Shown here: positions 3,436-33,335 of the stretch, one piece after another
How positions within the stretch are numbered: position 1 is the stretch's first letter
Layout of the letters: every line of letters begins with the position of its first letter
NCBI GenBank assembly: GCA_902774155.1
Contig: CACYHF010000006.1
Coordinates: forward strand, 1-37,390
Direction of reading: 5' to 3'
Length of the DNA: 37,390 bases
Source: an uncultured Bacteroidia bacterium
GTDB taxonomy: Bacteria; Bacteroidota; Bacteroidia; Bacteroidales; UBA932
The notes under the pieces: generated by a model
The model's input: only the letters and a program-made list of their open reading frames with translations
Databases searched by the model: none
Told to the model about the DNA's origin: nothing
Position numbers and translations under genes: made by a program

Positions 3436-5253
3436 ATGAAAAAGATTGCATATATCCTTTCTGTGGTTCTGATCGCCGCATTGGCGGTTTCCTGCGAGAA
3501 ATTCCTGGATTCGGATTCCCCTTCGGCCTTCGACTCGGCATCCGTCTATTCCAACTACTCCCTGACGGAAGGAACCATCTTCGGCATTACCGAGGCCTTC
3601 TGCGAGGTGAACTCCTACCGCGGCCGTTTCCTGCCCTGGTATGGTTTCAACACCGATATCGAGTGGTATAACACCTACAAGCCCGGCGACGGCAGATCCG
3701 ATATCGCCGCCTACGACTGTCAGCCCAACAATGCCCAGTTGAACCTGAGCAATGGTCCTTTCCCGCTCATGTACACTGGTATTGAGCGTGCCAACCTGGT
3801 GATTGAAGGCATCCGCGAATACGGCAAGCCGGAAACGAACGCCGATATGGCCTATCTCCTGGGCGAAGCCCTCACCTTGCGTGCCATGATTTACTACGAC
3901 CTTATCAAGGCCTGGGGAGATGTTCCTGCCCGTTTCGCACCGGTAACTGCGGAAACCATCTACATGCCTAAGGAAGACCGTGACGTGATCTTCAAGCAGA
4001 TCCTGGCCGATCTGGAGGAAGCCATCCCGTACCTGCCGAATCCCGGCGCTACGACTGCCACTTCCCGCACCGACCGCGTGAACAAGGTGTTCGCCGAAGG
4101 TCTGTACGCCCGCATCGCCCTCATGGCTTCCGGTTACGCCCTGCGTCCTGCCGAAGGTGCCGTAGGTACCGGCGACCTGGGTTCCGTGCGTCTGAGCTCC
4201 GATCCTGAACTCTCCAAGGCCACGCTCTATCCCAAGGCCCTGAATTATCTGAAGGACGCCATCGGCAAAGCTTCCCTGGAGCCCGACTACGAGACCTACT
4301 GGTACAATGTGAACAACATGGAGAACCTTGTGGCCGGTCCCGACCATGAGACCCTGTATGTGATTCCTTTCGGCGCCGGTCGCGGCCGCTGGAACTTCAC
4401 CTTTGCCATCAGCTCTGAAGGCTCTCACTGGTCCAACGGCGTGAGCCGCGGCGGTGATGCCGGTCCGGTTCCCACCGTGTATTTCATGTACGGCGATAAC
4501 GACATCCGTCGTGACGTGACCTGCGTGAACTATAAGTGGACCAAGAACGGCGATCCCGAACTCGCCGGCATCGGCAAGTGGTATTTCGGCAAATACCGTT
4601 ACGAATGGATGGACGCCCAGCCTTACTCCGGCGGCAACGACGACGGTATCAAGCCCGTGGTCATGCGTTATGCCGATATCCTCCTGATGGCTGCCGAAAT
4701 TGAAAACGAACTCAACGGCCCGTCCGGCGCTAAGAAATACCTGCAGGAAGTCCGTGCCCGTGCTACCGGTTTGGACGCTGCCGAAGTCTATGTAGCCGCC
4801 CTCAACAGCAAGGAAGTGTTCTTCGAGGCTGTGGCCCAGGAGCGCGCCCTGGAATTCTGCGGCGAGTTCCTCCGCAAGGCCGACCTCATCCGCTGGAACC
4901 GCCTGAAGAGCAGCCTGGACTACGCCAAGGAACAGATGTTCGCCCTCCGGAACCTGGAAAAATTGTATGTTATCTATACCGGTGATGTGGCCTACTCCAT
5001 CGCAGAGGACGGTAAGTCCATGGATGTGATATTCCCTACCATCGGCGATGAGATTCCTGCCGGTTATCAGGTGACCACCGGTTATCTGACCAAGTACGAC
5101 GACGCCAAGGCATCCGGTTTCTACACGAACCGCATCAATGGCATCTACTACAACAATCCCGACGAGTACATGTATTGGCCCATCTTCTACGATACCATTA
5201 CCAACAGCCAGGGTGTCATCAAGAACGATTACCACTACGATAATCCTCAATAG
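3436..5253 (+). CDS. SusD-like surface glycan-binding lipoprotein
   Basis: This 605-residue lipoprotein partners the SusC channel and binds oligosaccharide at the cell surface. The signal peptide ends in the lipobox AVSC with the lipidated Cys at position 20. The helical SusD core is recognisable by 'LRAMIYYDLIKAWGDVP' near residue 150, by VMRYADILLMAAEIENE near residue 410, and by a C-terminal ERALEFCGEFLRKADLIRW segment. These are hallmarks of the RagB/SusD family. It lies 12 bases after susC and 2 bases before the large lipoprotein gene, so all three are almost certainly co-transcribed. The sequence does not show the ligand; pectin fragments are inferred from context. Confidence 0.94.
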   Translation: MKKIAYILSVVLIAALAVSCEKFLDSDSPSAFDSASVYSNYSLTEGTIFGITEAFCEVNSYRGRFLPWYGFNTDIEWYNTYKPGDGRSDIAAYDCQPNNAQLNLSNGPFPLMYTGIERANLVIEGIREYGKPETNADMAYLLGEALTLRAMIYYDLIKAWGDVPARFAPVTAETIYMPKEDRDVIFKQILADLEEAIPYLPNPGATTATSRTDRVNKVFAEGLYARIALMASGYALRPAEGAVGTGDLGSVRLSSDPELSKATLYPKALNYLKDAIGKASLEPDYETYWYNVNNMENLVAGPDHETLYVIPFGAGRGRWNFTFAISSEGSHWSNGVSRGGDAGPVPTVYFMYGDNDIRRDVTCVNYKWTKNGDPELAGIGKWYFGKYRYEWMDAQPYSGGNDDGIKPVVMRYADILLMAAEIENELNGPSGAKKYLQEVRARATGLDAAEVYVAALNSKEVFFEAVAQERALEFCGEFLRKADLIRWNRLKSSLDYAKEQMFALRNLEKLYVIYTGDVAYSIAEDGKSMDVIFPTIGDEIPAGYQVTTGYLTKYDDAKASGFYTNRINGIYYNNPDEYMYWPIFYDTITNSQGVIKNDYHYDNPQ

Positions 5254-22761: not shown

Positions 22762-24039
22762 CTATGCGGCTTCCGCCTTTTGCTGCTCCATCAGCCTCTC
22801 CGCCAGCTGCACTACATTCGCCGTATGAATGCCGAAGAAGATGTACAGGATTTCCGTCTCCTTCTTTCTGGCTTTGACCCGGCGTAAGGAGTAATGCTCC
22901 TTCTGCGTGCCGAATGATCCCTCCATCGCCGTGGCACGAACCCGCGCAAGTTCCTGTCTCACAAAGTCTTTCTCTCGTTGCTCCTTCGCACGCTTCCCCT
23001 TCTGGACAAAGGAGGTCTGGATGCCGTTCTTCGAGCAGAGGTCCCGGTTCGCATTGCCGGCATAGCTCGTATCTCCACCTATCTTTTTCGCATCCACCCC
23101 AAACAGGCGCTTATGCATCTTGATGCAGTGGGCAAGTCTTGTCCCTTCGTTGAAGGCGTTGAAAGACAACTTCTCAATGAACGATATCCCATCCACCAGG
23201 ATGTTGTTGCACTTGGCTCCAAACTCAACGCTTTTCACTTCCTTGCCCCTCACGATAGGTCTCACATACGGCTTGTTCACGCTCACTATCCTGTCCGGGA
23301 TGCTCTCGCGGACATCACCGCTCCGGAAGTGGTTGTGCTGCTGGCGGTACACCTTCGTGATGATGTCAAACGTCTGTTTCTCTCTATCTGTGAAAAGCTT
23401 AACTCCTTCATGCTCACGTTCCATCTTCCGCGTCTCCCTCAGTATCTTTCCCAGCAGGTCCAACAGCCGGCGCGTTATCTTCCTCGTCTGGCTCTTCGTG
23501 TGCTTCCGCTGCTTGCGGTACGTCAGGTTGGCCTTCGCAACATCCAGGTACTTTGTCCTCGGGCGGTGGATTCCCACCCTCTGACTTGCCTCGCACATCA
23601 GCTCATATCCTTTCTCCACGCACTCCCAGAGCAGTTTCTGGTCGGTCGGATAGCGCATCTCGCTCTCATAGCACGTCGCATCCGTAAACATCGTGTCCAG
23701 GTGCTTCATGTAAGGCTTCCACGCCTCTGCCAGCAGGTTCTGCAGTTCCTGGATCTTAAGGCTTCCGGCCAGTTCTGCGGCAATGTCATCCAACAATTTG
23801 TAGTTCGTCAATGGATGCGTCGGATCAATCACGATGTCACAGAACAACTGGTAGTGAATGTTCCCGTTCAACTCCTCCATCAGCTTCGGGAAACTCATCT
23901 GCGTCTTCATCTTCAGGAACATCAGCGCCACTTTCCCCTCCGGGGTGAAGTAAGACTTCCGTCCACGCTTCGGAGTCATACTCTTATTAACCAGTCCGAA
24001 GCTCTCAGCCATCTCACGCAGCGGGAGGATCTTCTTCAT
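22762..24039 (-). CDS. DDE transposase, probably frame-disrupted at its N-terminus
   Basis: The 425-residue frame from the ATG at 24039 has the DDE triad: Asp120 in TDATCYE, Asp323 in GGDTSYAGN and Glu373 in MEGSFGTQKEH, with an N-terminal DUF772-like region (TPEGKVALMFLKM). This fits the IS5/IS1182-type superfamily. The coding frame clearly continues upstream of this ATG: codons 24120-24040 read DYTNLPFSEFNFYELYRETF then EKSELGR, which looks like true transposase sequence but is preceded by a TGA (24121-24123) and has no start codon. The ATG at 24146 in a neighbouring frame encodes MAKVRNFVE and would join this frame after a -1 shift. The gene is therefore either a frameshifted relic or depends on recoding. 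Confidence 0.85.
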   Translation of the reverse strand: MKKILPLREMAESFGLVNKSMTPKRGRKSYFTPEGKVALMFLKMKTQMSFPKLMEELNGNIHYQLFCDIVIDPTHPLTNYKLLDDIAAELAGSLKIQELQNLLAEAWKPYMKHLDTMFTDATCYESEMRYPTDQKLLWECVEKGYELMCEASQRVGIHRPRTKYLDVAKANLTYRKQRKHTKSQTRKITRRLLDLLGKILRETRKMEREHEGVKLFTDREKQTFDIITKVYRQQHNHFRSGDVRESIPDRIVSVNKPYVRPIVRGKEVKSVEFGAKCNNILVDGISFIEKLSFNAFNEGTRLAHCIKMHKRLFGVDAKKIGGDTSYAGNANRDLCSKNGIQTSFVQKGKRAKEQREKDFVRQELARVRATAMEGSFGTQKEHYSLRRVKARKKETEILYIFFGIHTANVVQLAERLMEQQKAEAA

Positions 24040-24578: not shown

Positions 24579-25064
24579 ATGCCCGGCAGCATACGATATC
24601 CGGATTCCCTGCGGCAGCAGGCGATAGCGCTTTCCCGGAAGGGGAAGGGCTATAAGGCCATCTCTACGGAGTTGGGAATCAAGCGGGATACGGTGCGGAA
24701 CTGGATTACCGCGTACCGGCTCACGGGGAGGACGGAGAGCGTGCAGATGACGGGGCAGATGCGCACCGTGCAGTTGGCGCAGCAAGAGGAGCTGTATGCA
24801 GAAGCTAGGGAGGAGTACGAGACCAGTACGGAGTCGCTGCTGTCCATTGCAAAAAAGCATGGTGTAAACTACAACAACCTGCGGCATTTCCTGCAGCAGC
24901 ACCATCCGGAAAGTGCCTTGCTGCACGGGTATGTCAAGCGCACGGCCACGCTGCGGGCCTCCCTGGAGGCGCAGATAGTTTCCCTCCAACAGACGGGGGA
25001 GGAGTTACTGCGGCAAATGCGGGAGGACCTGGACCAGCAACTACGAAGGGTCCAGCACCCGTAA
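24579..25064 (+). CDS. Orphan protein with two predicted HTH units and a C-terminal coiled coil
   Basis: This 161-residue protein starts with a homeodomain-like HTH (about residues 5-50; SRKGKGYKAISTELGIKRDT then VRNWITAYRLTGR), the type found in OrfA proteins of insertion sequences and in some phage regulators. A second HTH-like segment lies at about 85-115 (SLLSIAKKHGVNYNNLRHFL). The remainder (about 120-161) is a Gln/Glu/Leu-rich heptad region. No OrfB or recombinase follows, so it is either an orphan transposase subunit or a DNA-binding regulator. The start is the first ATG after a GC-poor stretch; the gene ends 18 bases before a strong hairpin. I do not recognise a named family for the full length. 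Confidence 0.6.
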   Translation: MPGSIRYPDSLRQQAIALSRKGKGYKAISTELGIKRDTVRNWITAYRLTGRTESVQMTGQMRTVQLAQQEELYAEAREEYETSTESLLSIAKKHGVNYNNLRHFLQQHHPESALLHGYVKRTATLRASLEAQIVSLQQTGEELLRQMREDLDQQLRRVQHP

Positions 25065-25254: not shown

Positions 25255-27444
25255 TTATAAACTCAGGGAGAGTTTTACCATAAAATTACACGGAGCCTGG
25301 GGGTATACCCCAATTCCCGTATAAACTTGCCCGGTGGAGGGATCATAGCTCTCCCAACGCCATCCGGAGGCGTAATAAATCCTATTGAACAAGTTGTTCA
25401 CGTAGGCGGTTATTCCCAGCTGCTTTCCGCCGCCCCACGTAAACGTATGCCCCACAGACAGATTGGCCACCCAATAGGCCGGGATGGCCATCTCGGAACG
25501 CATGGAGTTGTCCAGGAACTGCTTACCCACGTATTTCGCATCCAACGCCACCTGCCCGCCCTTCCAGGGACGCAGCGTAAGGCGAGCCATGCCGATGAGC
25601 GACGGAGACATGAGCATGGTGGTCTTCCCGTAGTGGACGGCATGCGTGCCGGAGTAATCGGAATAAGGAATGTAGGAGGTATAATCGGCAATCTGGTTCA
25701 TGGAAAGGGTGGCGTTGCCATCCAGTCGAAGCCAGCGCAGGGGTTCCCAGCCGGCACAGAGTTCCACGCCACGGCGCCAGGCCCGGGGGACATTCTCCTT
25801 GATGGCATAGCCGCTGGAAGACAGGCGTCCGGTCTCCAGCAACATATCCCAGTATTCCATAAAATAGAGGTTGGCCGATGCCGAAAATCGCCCGGAGGCA
25901 AAGGCGTAACCCGCCTCCACATCCAGCATCCGTTCCGGAGAAATCGGTGATGCCTCCCCTTTCACGTTATCCTTTATATCGCCCCGTCCCGGTTCGCGGT
26001 GTCCCAGGGCTACCGAAGCATATAGCTTGTGCCACCCCCACGCAGCCGTGACGCCGGCGCGGGGATTGAAAAAATTCCAGTCCCGTTTATAGGAGAGTTT
26101 ATCGGCCTCGGCGCCGCCATATTCCAGCCAGTCATCGTCCGTCCCTTCCAGACGGTAGTCAAGGCCGCGATACTGGAGGTCGGCATAGGCAGTGAGCCAG
26201 TCCAACGGCTTGTATTCGGCCCGGGCAAAGACCGAAAAATCCAGTTTCAAGGCCGAATTGTCGTACCAGTTCAGCTGGGCGTAGGGATAATCGGCCCCCA
26301 ACTGCTTGGCCCAAAGCACCTTCCCGTTATGGATGCCCAGATAGCCGCTTTCACTCACGCCGGCCGATGCATTCCACCTCCCGCGCGTATATTTCACCTG
26401 AGCCTGGCCCACCAGCAGGCTGTTTTCCATGCGCTTCTGGTAAATGAGATCGCTTCTACCCAGTTCCTTGGGAAAGCCGTAATTCACCAGCTTCTTGTTC
26501 ACCTTATAGTATTCGTCGTAGCCGTTCCCGTAGGTATAGTTGGCCGTGACCGTCAGATACAGGCCTTGTGTAAATGAATGAGTATAATTGGCTTGCAGAT
26601 GGTGCTGAAGGTAGTTGTCCGTCTGGTTGTCGTAATAGTAGACGTTGCCTTTCTCGTCGTAATATTCTCCCGCGCCATTGTACCGGCGATCCTTGTAGTA
26701 CTGCTCCAGTTCAATGCCGTCCCAGGTGATGCCGCTGCGCTGCTTTCCCATGAGCCAGGTGAACCGTACAGAATTGCGCCGGCCCAGCCATCCCAGCGTC
26801 ACAAAGGCCGAATGCGAGCGCACGAAGGCGTTGCGGATATAGCCGTCGGTGCTGCCGTGCGAATAGGCGGCCGTCGCATACCAGCCCTTCCGGCTACGGC
26901 CCGTGGACCCGCTCACTGTGGTGATAAACGTGTTGTAAGAACCTGCACTGAGATCGGCCGATACCCAAGGATCCGGGCTAACGAACGCAGTGTTCATATT
27001 GATGCTGGCCCCGAACGCACCGGCTCCGTTGGCGCTGGTACCCAGCCCGCGTTGCACCTGCACGCTGGAAATGAGGCTGCTCAGGGAAGGGATGTTCACC
27101 CAGAACACCTCCTGGCTTTCGGCATCGTTGAGGGTGATGCCGTTTAGCGTCACATTGATCTGGGAACCCTTGCTGCCCCGGATGGTCATGGCCGAATTCC
27201 CCAGTCCGGTGCCGCCTTCGTTGTAGGTAACCACGGAGGGCAGCAGGTTCAGGGCCATGGGCAGCGAATGCATGGGATTCGCCTGCCGGAGGGCCTCCTT
27301 GCCCACATTTTCGTAACTGACGGGGGTGTTGCTGCCGGCCCGGGAGGCCGATACCACTACGGAGTCCAGACGCTCCGTTTTCTCCTGCGCTGCGGCACAG
27401 AGTGACAGCGCACACAGCACTGCCGATAAGACATTCTTTTTCAT
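25255..27444 (-). CDS. TonB-dependent outer-membrane receptor, probably for thiamin
   Basis: This 729-residue receptor has a signal peptide (1-19, ending CAAAQ), a TonB-box-like LDSVVVSASR stretch near residue 27, a plug domain (about 45-160) containing GSAMTIRGSKGSQINV-type sequence, and a 22-strand-type barrel ending in an aromatic-poor VKLSLSL. On barrel sequence alone the substrate would be unknown. A TPP riboswitch overlaps its start codon, and such receptors under THI-box control in Bacteroidetes are known as outer-membrane thiamin transporters (for example the B. thetaiotaomicron OMthi). Import of thiamin, thiamin phosphate or a precursor is therefore the best call. No pnuT or thiamin pyrophosphokinase is adjacent. 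Confidence 0.85.
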   Translation of the reverse strand: MKKNVLSAVLCALSLCAAAQEKTERLDSVVVSASRAGSNTPVSYENVGKEALRQANPMHSLPMALNLLPSVVTYNEGGTGLGNSAMTIRGSKGSQINVTLNGITLNDAESQEVFWVNIPSLSSLISSVQVQRGLGTSANGAGAFGASINMNTAFVSPDPWVSADLSAGSYNTFITTVSGSTGRSRKGWYATAAYSHGSTDGYIRNAFVRSHSAFVTLGWLGRRNSVRFTWLMGKQRSGITWDGIELEQYYKDRRYNGAGEYYDEKGNVYYYDNQTDNYLQHHLQANYTHSFTQGLYLTVTANYTYGNGYDEYYKVNKKLVNYGFPKELGRSDLIYQKRMENSLLVGQAQVKYTRGRWNASAGVSESGYLGIHNGKVLWAKQLGADYPYAQLNWYDNSALKLDFSVFARAEYKPLDWLTAYADLQYRGLDYRLEGTDDDWLEYGGAEADKLSYKRDWNFFNPRAGVTAAWGWHKLYASVALGHREPGRGDIKDNVKGEASPISPERMLDVEAGYAFASGRFSASANLYFMEYWDMLLETGRLSSSGYAIKENVPRAWRRGVELCAGWEPLRWLRLDGNATLSMNQIADYTSYIPYSDYSGTHAVHYGKTTMLMSPSLIGMARLTLRPWKGGQVALDAKYVGKQFLDNSMRSEMAIPAYWVANLSVGHTFTWGGGKQLGITAYVNNLFNRIYYASGWRWESYDPSTGQVYTGIGVYPQAPCNFMVKLSLSL

Positions 27445-27517
27445 TTCCTTACGACGGTATCAACCGTATCAAGTTCAAAGGGACTCTCTCAATCCTTTTC
27501 AGGATACCCCTAAAATG
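27442..27517 (-). promoter_or_regulatory. TPP riboswitch (THI element) overlapping the receptor start
   Basis: The minus strand carries the TPP aptamer core: GGGGTATCC, a P3 hairpin ATCCT-GAAA-AGGAT, TTGAGA, then CCCTTTGAACTTGAT, a P5 hairpin ACGGT-TGAT-ACCGT, and CGTAAGGAAA. These match the conserved CUGAGA, ACCCUUUGAACCUGAU and GCGUAGGGAA blocks. The closing stem P1 pairs CATTT (27517-27513) with AAATG (27446-27442), so the start codon and the AAGGA ribosome-binding stretch sit in the 3' part of the aptamer. Thiamin pyrophosphate binding should thus block translation. It starts only 4 bases after the stop of the preceding gene. Confidence 0.93.
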
Positions 27518-27520
27518 TTA

Positions 27521-28270
27521 TTACTTTTTTACTAATTCTATCATATACATCCGGGGCCAGTTTTTACCGGTGAGGTAAATGTGGCCGACGGAGTCGATGG
27601 CAATTCCATTGAGTACATCCGTTTCTGCCGTACGGAGTTTGGCGGGCAGGAGGCCTTTGCAGTCAATGAGGCCTTCTACCTTACCGTTATCGGGATTGAT
27701 GATCACAATGGAGTCCGTGGTGTAAAGGTTGGCCCAGATTTTTCCGTCTATCCATTCCATTTCGTTCAGGTTCCGGACGGGACGGCCGTTCAGGGTCACC
27801 GGCTGGCGGCGCTGGACTTTCATATCCTTGTCCAGGAAATACAGCGTGGCGCTTCCGTCGCTGGCAATGAGCTGCTTGCCGTCGGTGGTGAGGCCCCAGC
27901 CTTCGCGGGGATAAGAAACGGTGGACTGGTAGGTTAGCGTGGCGGGATCGTAGCGGAAGGCCACCTTGTTGGTCCAGGTGAGCACGTATAGGATGTTGTC
28001 CAGAATGACGGATCCTTCGCCGAAATACTTCTTGTTCAGCCTTTTTTCGGCTGTGGGTTCTCCTGTGGCCAAGTCTACGGTGCGGATGGTGCTTTCGCCG
28101 TACTGGCCGGTGGTCTCGTACAGGGTACCGTCATGGAAAAAGAGCCCCTGGGTATAGGCATCGGTGCGGTGCGGGTATTCCCGTACCACCTTCACCGTGT
28201 ACTCCTTTACCTGCGCGTGTGTGCAGGCACAAAGGAGCAATGCTAACAACAGGAGCGGCAGTTTCCTCAT
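27521..28270 (-). CDS. Glutaminyl-peptide cyclotransferase-like lipoprotein
   Basis: This 249-residue protein has a lipoprotein signal (LLLCAC, probable lipidated Cys16) and then a single five-bladed-propeller-type domain. Segments such as HRTDAYTQGLFFHDGTLYET, GEGSVILDNILYVLTWTN, NEMEWIDGKIWANLY and VLNGIAIDSVGHIYLTGKNWP are characteristic of the plant-type glutamine cyclotransferase family (Glu_cyclase_2). The enzyme converts N-terminal glutamine to pyroglutamate in exported proteins or peptides. Its start overlaps the stop of the DUF1846 gene by four bases (ATGA), so they are coupled. The TPP aptamer begins 4 bases after its stop. Confidence 0.88.
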   Translation of the reverse strand: MRKLPLLLLALLLCACTHAQVKEYTVKVVREYPHRTDAYTQGLFFHDGTLYETTGQYGESTIRTVDLATGEPTAEKRLNKKYFGEGSVILDNILYVLTWTNKVAFRYDPATLTYQSTVSYPREGWGLTTDGKQLIASDGSATLYFLDKDMKVQRRQPVTLNGRPVRNLNEMEWIDGKIWANLYTTDSIVIINPDNGKVEGLIDCKGLLPAKLRTAETDVLNGIAIDSVGHIYLTGKNWPRMYMIELVKK

Positions 28271-29739
28271 ACTTTCTTGATCTTACGGACAGGGTCGCAG
28301 GTGAGGCCGATGCCCAGTTTCTTGAAGGTCTTGCGGTCCACCTCGCTGAGCATCACGGTGGAATGCACCTGGGCGCCGTTCAGATTGGGCAGCTGTTCCA
28401 GGGCCAGACGGCAGTTTTCGTCCAGACGGCCCATCATAGAGATGGCCACCAGCACCTCGTCCGTATGGAGACGCGGATTGTGGCCGTGCAGGTATTCCAC
28501 TTTCAGTTTCTGGATGGGCTGGATCATAGTCTGCGGAATGAGCTTCACATTGTGGGCGATGCCCGCCAAATACTTCAAAGCATTCAAAAGCAGTGCCGCG
28601 CTGGGGCCCAGCAGGGGGCTGGTCTCGCCGGTGAGGATGGTGCCGTCGGCCAGTTCAATGGCGGCGGTGGCCTTCTGGGCCTTCTCCAGCCGTTCGCGGG
28701 CGGCTACCACGCATTTGCGGTCCTGTACGGTGAGCTTGGCCCGTTTCATCAGCAGGGCCAGTTTGTTCACCTCGCTTTCCGTGGCTTTGCCATCGGCAAA
28801 ATTGCACAGGGAGGTGAAATAGCGGCGGATAATTTCCTGCAGGGAGGCCTGGCGGCACACTTCGTCGTCGCTGATGCAATAGCCGATCATATTCACGCCC
28901 ATATCGGTGGGCGACTTGTACGGAGCCTCTCCGTAGATGTTCTCGAAGATGGCGTTCATCACCGGGAAAATCTCGATGTCGCGGTTGTAGTTCACGGCTG
29001 TTTCCCCGTAGGCGTCCAGGTGGAAGGGATCGATCATATTCACGTCTTCCAGATCTGCGGTGGCGGCTTCGTAGGCGATGTTCACGGGATGCGTGAGCGG
29101 CATGTTCCACACCGGGAAGGTCTCGAATTTGGCATAGCCGGCCTTCACGCCGCGCCGGTTCTCCTGGTACAGCTGGCTCAGGCACACGGCCATTTTGCCG
29201 CTGCCGGGGCCGGGTGCCGTAACCACGATGAGGGACTTGGTGGTTTCTACGAAATCGTTTTTGCCGAAACCTTCGTCCGAATCGATCAGGGCTACATTGT
29301 TGGGATAGCCCTCGATGGTATAGTGGTAATAGACATGGATGCCCATCTTTTCCAGGCGCTTGCGGTAAGCTTCGGCGCTGGCCTGGCCGTTGAAATGAGT
29401 AATGACCACACTGTTCACGCAAAGCTCCCGGTCCAGGAATTCGTCCCGCAGGCGCAGCACATCCATATCGTAGGTGATGCCCAGATCGGCCCGGATCTTA
29501 TTTTTCTCGATGTCTACGGCGCTGATAACGATGATAATCTCCATATCGTCCTTCAACTGCATGAGCATCTGGAGTTTACTGTCGGGTTCAAACCCCGGGA
29601 GCACGCGGCTGGCGTGGTAGTCGTCGAACAGTTTGCCGCCGAATTCCATATACAATTTGTCACCAAAGGCGGCAATGCGCTCCTTGATGTGCTCCGACTG
29701 GATTTTCAGGTATTTTGCGTTGTCGAACCCGTATTTCAT
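28267..29739 (-). CDS. DUF1846 (UPF0371) family protein
   Basis: This 490-residue cytoplasmic protein matches the DUF1846 family, whose members begin KYGFDNAKYLKIQSEHIKER as here. Other recognisable segments are IEKNKIRADLGITYDMDVLR, VTAPGPGSGKMAVCLSQLY (a P-loop-like stretch near residue 215), and a C-terminal LHGHNPRLHTDEVLVAIS. I choose the ATG at 29739. The ATG at 29784 would add 15 residues, but the predicted promoter -7 element lies within that extension. The family's activity is not established to my knowledge. It heads the operon with the cyclotransferase-like gene and the thiamin receptor. Confidence 0.9.
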   Translation of the reverse strand: MKYGFDNAKYLKIQSEHIKERIAAFGDKLYMEFGGKLFDDYHASRVLPGFEPDSKLQMLMQLKDDMEIIIVISAVDIEKNKIRADLGITYDMDVLRLRDEFLDRELCVNSVVITHFNGQASAEAYRKRLEKMGIHVYYHYTIEGYPNNVALIDSDEGFGKNDFVETTKSLIVVTAPGPGSGKMAVCLSQLYQENRRGVKAGYAKFETFPVWNMPLTHPVNIAYEAATADLEDVNMIDPFHLDAYGETAVNYNRDIEIFPVMNAIFENIYGEAPYKSPTDMGVNMIGYCISDDEVCRQASLQEIIRRYFTSLCNFADGKATESEVNKLALLMKRAKLTVQDRKCVVAARERLEKAQKATAAIELADGTILTGETSPLLGPSAALLLNALKYLAGIAHNVKLIPQTMIQPIQKLKVEYLHGHNPRLHTDEVLVAISMMGRLDENCRLALEQLPNLNGAQVHSTVMLSEVDRKTFKKLGIGLTCDPVRKIKKV

Positions 29740-29769
29740 GTGCGCGAATGTGTTGTGGTAAATACGGGA

Positions 29770-29822
29770 TACAAAATTAGGCATTTTTCTCAGAATTGCA
29801 GAAAATATTGCCTAATTTTGTA
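29770..29822. promoter_or_regulatory. Mirror-image divergent promoters in a 14-bp inverted repeat
   Basis: TACAAAATTAGGCA (29770-29783) and TGCCTAATTTTGTA (29809-29822) are exact reverse complements separated by 25 bases. Each arm carries TAATTTTG, a match to the -7 element TAnnTTTG: minus strand 29779-29772 for the DUF1846 operon, plus strand 29813-29820 for the FGE-like gene. The symmetry may reflect only the shared promoter sequence or a binding site for a dimeric regulator. Confidence 0.65.
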
Positions 29823-33011: not shown

Positions 33012-33335
33012 TGGAGGTGCGATCTGTCGCGGCTGCACTGCCGGGCCCCCGTTATCAGGAAGTGCAGCTGAGGAAAGTCCGCACAGGGTAGGGCACCCGG
33101 CTGTGGAAAGCACAGTAGGGAGTAATCTTTAAACAGCGTAACAGAAAAGTACCGCCGGAGTTTTCCGGTAAGGGTGAAAACGCGGGGTAAGAGCCCACGA
33201 CGCTGCATGGCGACATGCCGCGGGTACGTTGTCCGGGCCTGCAAGACCAAATATACCGGCAGATGAGGGCTGCCCGTCCGATGCCGGGGGGTAGGTTGCG
33301 AAGATAAATGACAGATTTATCCCGTGAGGCGGAGC
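33012..33335 (+). ncRNA. rnpB: RNase P RNA, bacterial type A
   Basis: The catalytic RNA that trims tRNA 5' leaders. The conserved blocks appear in order: CTGAGGAAAGTCCGCACAG near 33070, ACAGAAAAGTACCGCC near 33139, GGTAAGGGTGAAAACGCGGGGTAAGAGCCCAC split over 33169-33201, AGACCAAATA near 33244, and GGGTAGGTTGCG near 33290. ATCTGTC (33020-33026) can pair with GACAGAT near 33312-33318, in line with the P2 helix. The 5' and 3' limits are approximate. A degenerate -7 element, TACATTAG, lies at 33002-33009 right after the pgi stop. The RNA ends within a few bases of the convergent sdaA stop. Confidence 0.95.

Follow-up and report, generated by a model that had tools for sequence, protein, structure and literature searches.

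How can the last gene of an operon be placed under a riboswitch of its own when the space ahead of it holds neither a promoter box nor an expression platform? This question is raised by a 37,390-nucleotide stretch of DNA from an uncultured Bacteroidia bacterium (Bacteroidales; UBA932; assembly GCA_902774155.1, contig CACYHF010000006.1, positions 1 to 37,390), here called the window. On its minus strand a DUF1846 gene, a glutamine cyclotransferase-like gene, a thiamin pyrophosphate (TPP) aptamer and a TonB-dependent receptor gene follow one another in this order. We consider it likely that the aptamer is an intercistronic TPP riboswitch that works without an expression platform, by direct translational attenuation, and represses the last gene alone. 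The features concerned are these:

29772..29779, minus strand: predicted -7 promoter box TAATTTTG of the operon, a TAnnTTTG box carried by all 11 DUF1846-headed loci
28267..29739, minus strand: DUF1846 gene (Pfam, 6e-179), the start being probably Met16 of the longest open reading frame (ORF; 28267-29784)
27521..28270, minus strand: glutamine cyclotransferase-like gene, a probable lipoprotein (Pfam Glu_cyclase_2, 7e-89; lipobox recognised by eye)
27429..27521, minus strand: TPP riboswitch aptamer (THI element), a full-length match to Rfam RF00059
27444-27442, minus strand: start codon ATG of the receptor, read from the sequence
25255..27444, minus strand: TonB-dependent receptor, a probable outer-membrane thiamin transporter of the OMthi kind (Pfam Plug, 3.9e-13)

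An initial annotation of this DNA, made from the letters alone, had named a TPP aptamer and suggested a covariance-model check, which bears the claim out: RF00059 matches with 69.3 bits (gathering score 54.3, E 8.8e-12), model positions 1-105 lying at 27521-27429 on the minus strand. It is the sole TPP match in the window's own genome, which is 92% complete. Receptor homology yielded 80 loci from relatives (the named set), Candidatus Cryptobacteroides among them; three of the 80 lack the aptamer by pattern and three have too little upstream sequence. Part of the loci were chosen by the aptamer pattern, so that canonical aptamers are favoured. Fifteen relatives chosen from the 80 were scanned with the Rfam model, and all 15 pass its gathering score. 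The covariation set holds 78 sequences (77 named relatives with a pattern match and the window), and 58 of them fitted the strict pattern. In these 58, the second pair of P4 (C-G in 21, U-A in 37; the pattern restricted the 3' base to a purine) and the first pair of P5 (A-U in 29, G-C in 19, C-G in 9, U-A in 1; both sides free in the pattern) are always paired, and the fourth pair of P4 is non-standard in seven. The folding energy of the element is unremarkable (z -1.30, with 25 of 200 shuffles folding equally well), and thermodynamics alone would therefore not pick it out.

At its 3' end the aptamer runs into the receptor gene. In the Rfam register the closing stem P1 has its 5' strand at 27516-27512 and its 3' strand at 27445-27441, with the AUG inside the latter. 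The receptor ORF (25255-27444) encodes 729 amino acids that begin with what reads as a signal peptide, and more than 50 residues separate the first methionine from the next. A similar position recurs in the relatives, as the A of the AUG lies between 5 nucleotides (nt) inside P1 and 2 nt past it in 51 of the 74 evaluable named loci, which we call abutting, and the AUG overlaps P1 in 37 of these 51. The other 23 carry an expression platform between the aptamer and the gene. In the named set, loci were sorted into abutting and platform by eye and not blind, including L057, L065, L068, L077 and L078, which the ORF rule misplaces.

Bacteroidetes promoters carry a box with the consensus TAnnTTTG (PMC7366714). 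No such box lies within 880 nt upstream of the window aptamer, and from 29784 to 27445 the minus strand holds a single one, at 29779-29772, at the head of DUF1846. It stands 40 nt ahead of Met16, within the longest DUF1846 ORF, and the NCBIfam NF010184 match starts at residue 16 of this ORF; both together indicate that the gene probably starts at 29739 and not at 29784, the ORF being 15 codons too long. The DUF1846 and cyclotransferase genes overlap by 4 nt, and the stop codon of the latter (TAA, 27523-27521) ends 3 nt ahead of C27517. Boxes at the operon head are also found in the relatives. All 11 loci headed by DUF1846, counting the window, carry one 34-41 nt ahead of the conserved start of that gene; of the abutting loci without DUF1846, 28 of 31 have one that precedes the cyclotransferase start by 12-55 nt (expected 2.0; one further locus was too short). 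We infer that the receptor is co-transcribed with the upstream genes.

The host family at large was covered by a search of 149 genomes from 25 genera, 122 of which carry the aptamer at E<=0.001; of the 124 places found, 13 score below the Rfam cut-off. Sorted by how far the aptamer lies from the receptor AUG, the places comprise 57 platform loci, 31 abutting loci and 36 loci without a downstream receptor homologue. Start codons were located with tblastn and the first in-frame ATG, and by hand in L085, L103, L108, L194, L259, L262 and L265. The family and named sets may share species, and their counts are kept separate. A cyclotransferase gene ends at most 30 nt upstream of the aptamer in 17 of the 31 abutting loci, in 2 of the 57 platform loci and in none of the 36 loci without a receptor.

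Where no cyclotransferase is adjacent, TAnnTTTG is common in the 150 nt before the aptamer, being present in 50 of 52 evaluable platform loci (shuffles expect 4.4), in 33 of 35 evaluable loci without a downstream receptor homologue (1.5) and in 10 of 14 abutting loci (0.75), mostly 7-38 nt ahead of the aptamer. With an adjacent cyclotransferase it is found in one of two platform loci (0.06) and in one of 17 abutting loci (0.5). The high rate in the leader-type classes indicates that the scan detects boxes where they are due and fails just at the abutting intercistronic aptamers. The named set gives a similar result for abutting loci, with a box in 0 of 41 when the cyclotransferase is at most 40 nt away (expected 0.5), in 0 of 9 at a gap of 41-170 nt and in the single locus where it is far; for platform loci the corresponding counts are 5 of 16, 2 of 4 and 3 of 3. 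The earlier proposal of an intercistronic aptamer with no promoter box just upstream is thus supported, and the box is found at the operon head instead.

Between the aptamer and the AUG there is no room for a terminator, an antiterminator or a sequestor, which makes direct translational attenuation, a form of the translational control suggested in the initial annotation, the best candidate mechanism. A terminator was considered and rejected for want of room, and a hairpin located some 20 nt inside the coding sequence lacks a U tract. A start codon at most 15 nt from the aptamer core marks direct translation attenuation, which is commonest for TPP, preQ1 and SAM-I riboswitches (Barrick and Breaker 2007, PMC2258182), and the window AUG, overlapping the 3' strand of P1, lies well inside this distance. 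Bacteroidetes mRNAs are described as lacking a Shine-Dalgarno sequence, with initiation tuned by the structure near the AUG (Baez 2019, PMC6847099). If initiation requires little structure at the AUG, a locked aptamer just 5' of it should suffice. In the proposed sequence of events, the promoter at 29779-29772 would drive transcription of DUF1846, the cyclotransferase gene and the receptor gene as one mRNA. At low TPP the aptamer would be loosely folded and ribosomes could load at the receptor AUG. Bound TPP would lock the three-way junction, P2 and P4/P5, so that some 75 nt leading up to the AUG, together with the start region, become compact and initiation is blocked. Such an OFF switch would hit the last gene only and spare the genes upstream.

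Untranslated mRNA is exposed to Rho and nucleases, so that the bound aptamer might act at the RNA level, the receptor mRNA being lost through Rho-dependent termination or nuclease cleavage; the intercistronic placement would fit such a polarity control. We regard this as unlikely, since no intrinsic terminator fits between the aptamer and the AUG, and since the transport genes of Bacteroides thetaiotaomicron show no significant mRNA change with thiamin (Costliow 2017, PMC5613172), although the aptamers there lie in 5' untranslated regions (UTRs; PMC7366714). The unchanged mRNA is compatible with translational control.

Several observations weigh against direct translational attenuation. Its weakest point is that folding shows no clear switch of AUG accessibility. 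In a 140-nt context the unpaired probabilities of A, U and G are 0.88/0.67/0.87 when the RNA folds freely and 0.74/0.79/0.71 when the core of the aptamer is enforced, and the free fold in a 115-nt context gives 0.47/0.40/0.83. The minimum free energy structure of a 171-nt context moreover differs from the aptamer fold. As the free and core-enforced folds are similar in AUG accessibility, minimum free energy folding was discarded as evidence for a switch. The promoter test covers the TAnnTTTG consensus only, and the 17 cyclotransferase-linked abutting loci of the family set are not independent, representing five genera with ten loci from one. Among the 14 abutting loci that have no cyclotransferase next to them, seven fall short of the Rfam cut-off. 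Eleven of the 16 named platform loci with the cyclotransferase at most 40 nt away also have no box, so that an intercistronic position alone does not imply translational control. The three other sampled genomes of the window's genus with both aptamer and receptor (G084, G096, G129) all have the platform form. Lastly, P1 is short, the 17 cyclotransferase-linked family loci having on average 0.59 contiguous pairs versus 0.71 with swapped arms.

The shortness of P1 bears on a more specific proposal of the initial annotation, which had seen a five-pair P1 with the start codon in it, formed by two strands:

27513..27517, minus strand: CATTT, 5' strand of the earlier-proposed P1, in a slid register
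27442..27446, minus strand: AAATG, 3' strand of the earlier-proposed P1, which includes the start codon, read from the sequence

The complementarity is real and the position of the AUG is shared with the relatives; the pairing is not conserved. This register is slid with respect to the consensus P1 and takes A27446 from the conserved GGGA stretch, and in the Rfam register the window has U27512-A27445 and U27513-A27444, then a U.U mismatch and U27515.G27442, that is, two contiguous canonical pairs. The AUG is fully pairable in some register in 23 of 52 abutting sequences versus a mean of 22 after permutation of the 5' arm (764 of 2000 permutations reach 23), figures that are not strict probabilities because the sequences are related. 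L007 and L055 were assigned to the platform class by pattern in the swapped-arm P1 count, an assignment that was refined in the 52-sequence permutation count. With both the permuted and the swapped-arm counts at chance level, base pairing of the start codon finds no support as a conserved device, nor does the pairing of the AUG within P1 as the working part of the switch. Start-codon sequestration proper, in which a P1 of 5-6 base pairs (CAUUU/AAAUG) would pair the AUG when TPP is bound, is accordingly quite improbable in our judgement. It would draw on the perfect complementarity in the window and on the CAUUU/AAAUG helix formed in the 115-nt minimum-energy fold, but it would consume the conserved junction bases G27447 and A27446, and the slid register reaches at least five pairs in one of the 17 family loci, the window itself, and in one of the 52 named loci.

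A P1 at swap level could also belong to a decaying or non-regulatory aptamer whose stem has eroded and which no longer switches the receptor. The 36 family aptamers without a downstream receptor homologue have a P1 of 4.58 pairs (1.28 swapped), which sets the 17 cyclotransferase-linked loci apart. Even so, the innermost P1 pairs of the named set, whose sequences are related, exceed the permutation level (2.39 versus 1.42, reached in 0 of 2000), P4 and P5 covary, and the relatives scanned stand above the Rfam cut-off without exception, which leaves decay only a slim chance.

The aptamer varies among the relatives in two further ways. The receptor of L002 is 97% identical to that of the window, yet the upstream region and the 5' half of the aptamer differ (L002 1-165 versus window 27429-27620); near identity starts within the aptamer, at AACTTGATACGG, which suggests a recombination within the riboswitch. 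L021 and L032 (at about 3840-4000) have a similar palindromic insert (GGGGGTCTGGGGG...CCCCCAG) in the aptamer's P3 arm, which looks as though a small mobile hairpin had inserted there.

If direct translational attenuation operates in the abutting loci, it does so beside a different design in related loci. The named loci with a platform are:

L034, L039-L041, L044, L045, L053, L054, L058, L060, L062, L065-L069
L071-L073, L077, L078, L080, L081 (continued)

In all 23 the aptamer is followed by a hairpin (CCUUGCAU...AUGCGAGG) and then by U-rich sequence, the 3' arm of the hairpin holding the receptor AUG and the U-rich run forming the next codons, which mostly encode MRGF. The platform is about 44-65 nt long and ends in this terminator-like hairpin. 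Seventeen of the 23 also contain AUCUCA, the complement of UGAGAU such as occurs in the aptamer's UGAGA element. As abutting and platform loci occur with related receptors, one receptor family holds both platformless and terminator-like designs.

Outside the host family, 119 aptamers were examined (89 from other Bacteroidales and 30 from the wider phylum, high-scoring ones being favoured). By a mechanical ORF rule none of them is both abutting and at most 20 nt from an upstream ORF of at least 100 codons, four being abutting. One locus, L297, was classed as abutting with the upstream ORF 25 nt off, outside the 20-nt limit, and a promoter box precedes its aptamer by 8 nt. It therefore seems that the platformless intercistronic form arose within the host family. 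Within the window's genus the aptamer is found in 5 of 11 genomes searched. In the six without it, the receptor has no match in five and a distant match (E 2.9e-15) in one; of the four relatives with it, three carry the receptor, at 61, 53 and 30-35% identity. There is some small chance that a leader riboswitch was moved to mid-operon in one family, its platform and promoter being dropped, and that P1 is fragile by design, with TPP control gated in addition by translation of the upstream gene. In that case ribosomes ending at the cyclotransferase stop, 3 nt before the 5' strand of P1, could open the stem.

What the switch would control is suggested by other aptamers. Seventy-five of the 119 outside-family aptamers precede a homologue of the receptor (E<1e-5 within the 119 loci), 64 of them at E<1e-30, and the entry with the median E-value has 36% identity. 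For the B. thetaiotaomicron receptor BT2390 (OMthi), a role in thiamin uptake is supported by the growth of deletion mutants (PMC5613172). The homologous aptamer-linked receptors and the mutant growth together point to thiamin or a close relative as the likely substrate, in line with the substrate that had been assigned from the aptamer. A solved structure to lean on was sought in vain, the receptor having no relative in the PDB at E<=0.001, and the window's own genome contains no second receptor match at E<=0.001. ThiC, the sole biosynthesis gene sought, was not found in this 92% complete genome, and three PnuC-type transporters are present on contigs other than the window's, which suggests that the cell must import thiamin or a precursor. 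The aptamer thus singles out the receptor as the probable route by which thiamin enters this organism.

The operon of the window was initially described with DUF1846 as a full member. Of 77 aptamer-bearing relatives, 10 have DUF1846 upstream, a count to which at least four of them could not contribute because less than 800 nt of their upstream sequence was available, and DUF1846 was rejected as a core partner; the recurrent unit is cyclotransferase, aptamer and receptor. Just past the 3' end of the receptor lie an IS5-like transposase gene (22762-24039) and an IS630/HTH-like transposase fragment (24579-25064). A bacterial RNase P RNA of class A is found at 33022-33320 (148.5 bits), and among the 15 relatives scanned RNase P RNA also flanks the aptamer in L009, 2.2 kb upstream on the same strand, and in L013, about 0.8 kb off on the opposite strand. 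The region 214-21637 holds a SusC/SusD-like pair, a large DUF4957/DUF5123 protein, a glucuronate isomerase, a mannitol dehydrogenase-type enzyme, an MFS transporter, a GH43 protein, a short-chain dehydrogenase and a PfkB kinase, and by its gene content it looks like a pectin or uronate utilisation locus.

The aptamer, its ligand class, the receptor type and direct attenuation are already known, and it is the promoterless mid-operon placement with a reduced P1 that looks special to one bacterial family. This arrangement was not found in the open-licence literature, which is weak evidence of novelty since preprints lay outside the search. A 2019 preprint by Costliow, Degnan and Vanderpool, reportedly on TPP riboswitches regulating transcription or translation in Bacteroides, may, to judge by its title, hold part of it. 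Costliow 2017 (PMC5613172) describes the working of TPP riboswitches in Bacteroidetes as uncertain. A natural comparison is offered by related receptors that carry either a platformless, AUG-abutting aptamer or a terminator-like platform, with promoter boxes that differ to match in many loci. If direct translational attenuation is at work in the window, the locus would show how a single gene of an operon can be controlled alone, and how translation can come under riboswitch control in a phylum said to have no Shine-Dalgarno sequences.

The window shares the aptamer sequence and structure of other RF00059 riboswitches and the probable thiamin uptake gene downstream, and differs in the setting of the aptamer, which is intercistronic in a predicted operon and without an adjacent promoter box. 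It resembles the OMthi BT2390 system (PMC5613172, PMC7366714) in placing a TonB-dependent receptor under a TPP riboswitch, whereas the aptamer described there is located in the 5' UTR and here in mid-operon. The dual platform, which combines a terminator with the start region (PMC2258182), is resembled by the related platform loci, and the window is without a platform. With the direct translation attenuation class (PMC2258182) the window has in common an AUG within 15 nt of the core and no platform, but its site is intercistronic and in a phylum said to lack Shine-Dalgarno sequences.

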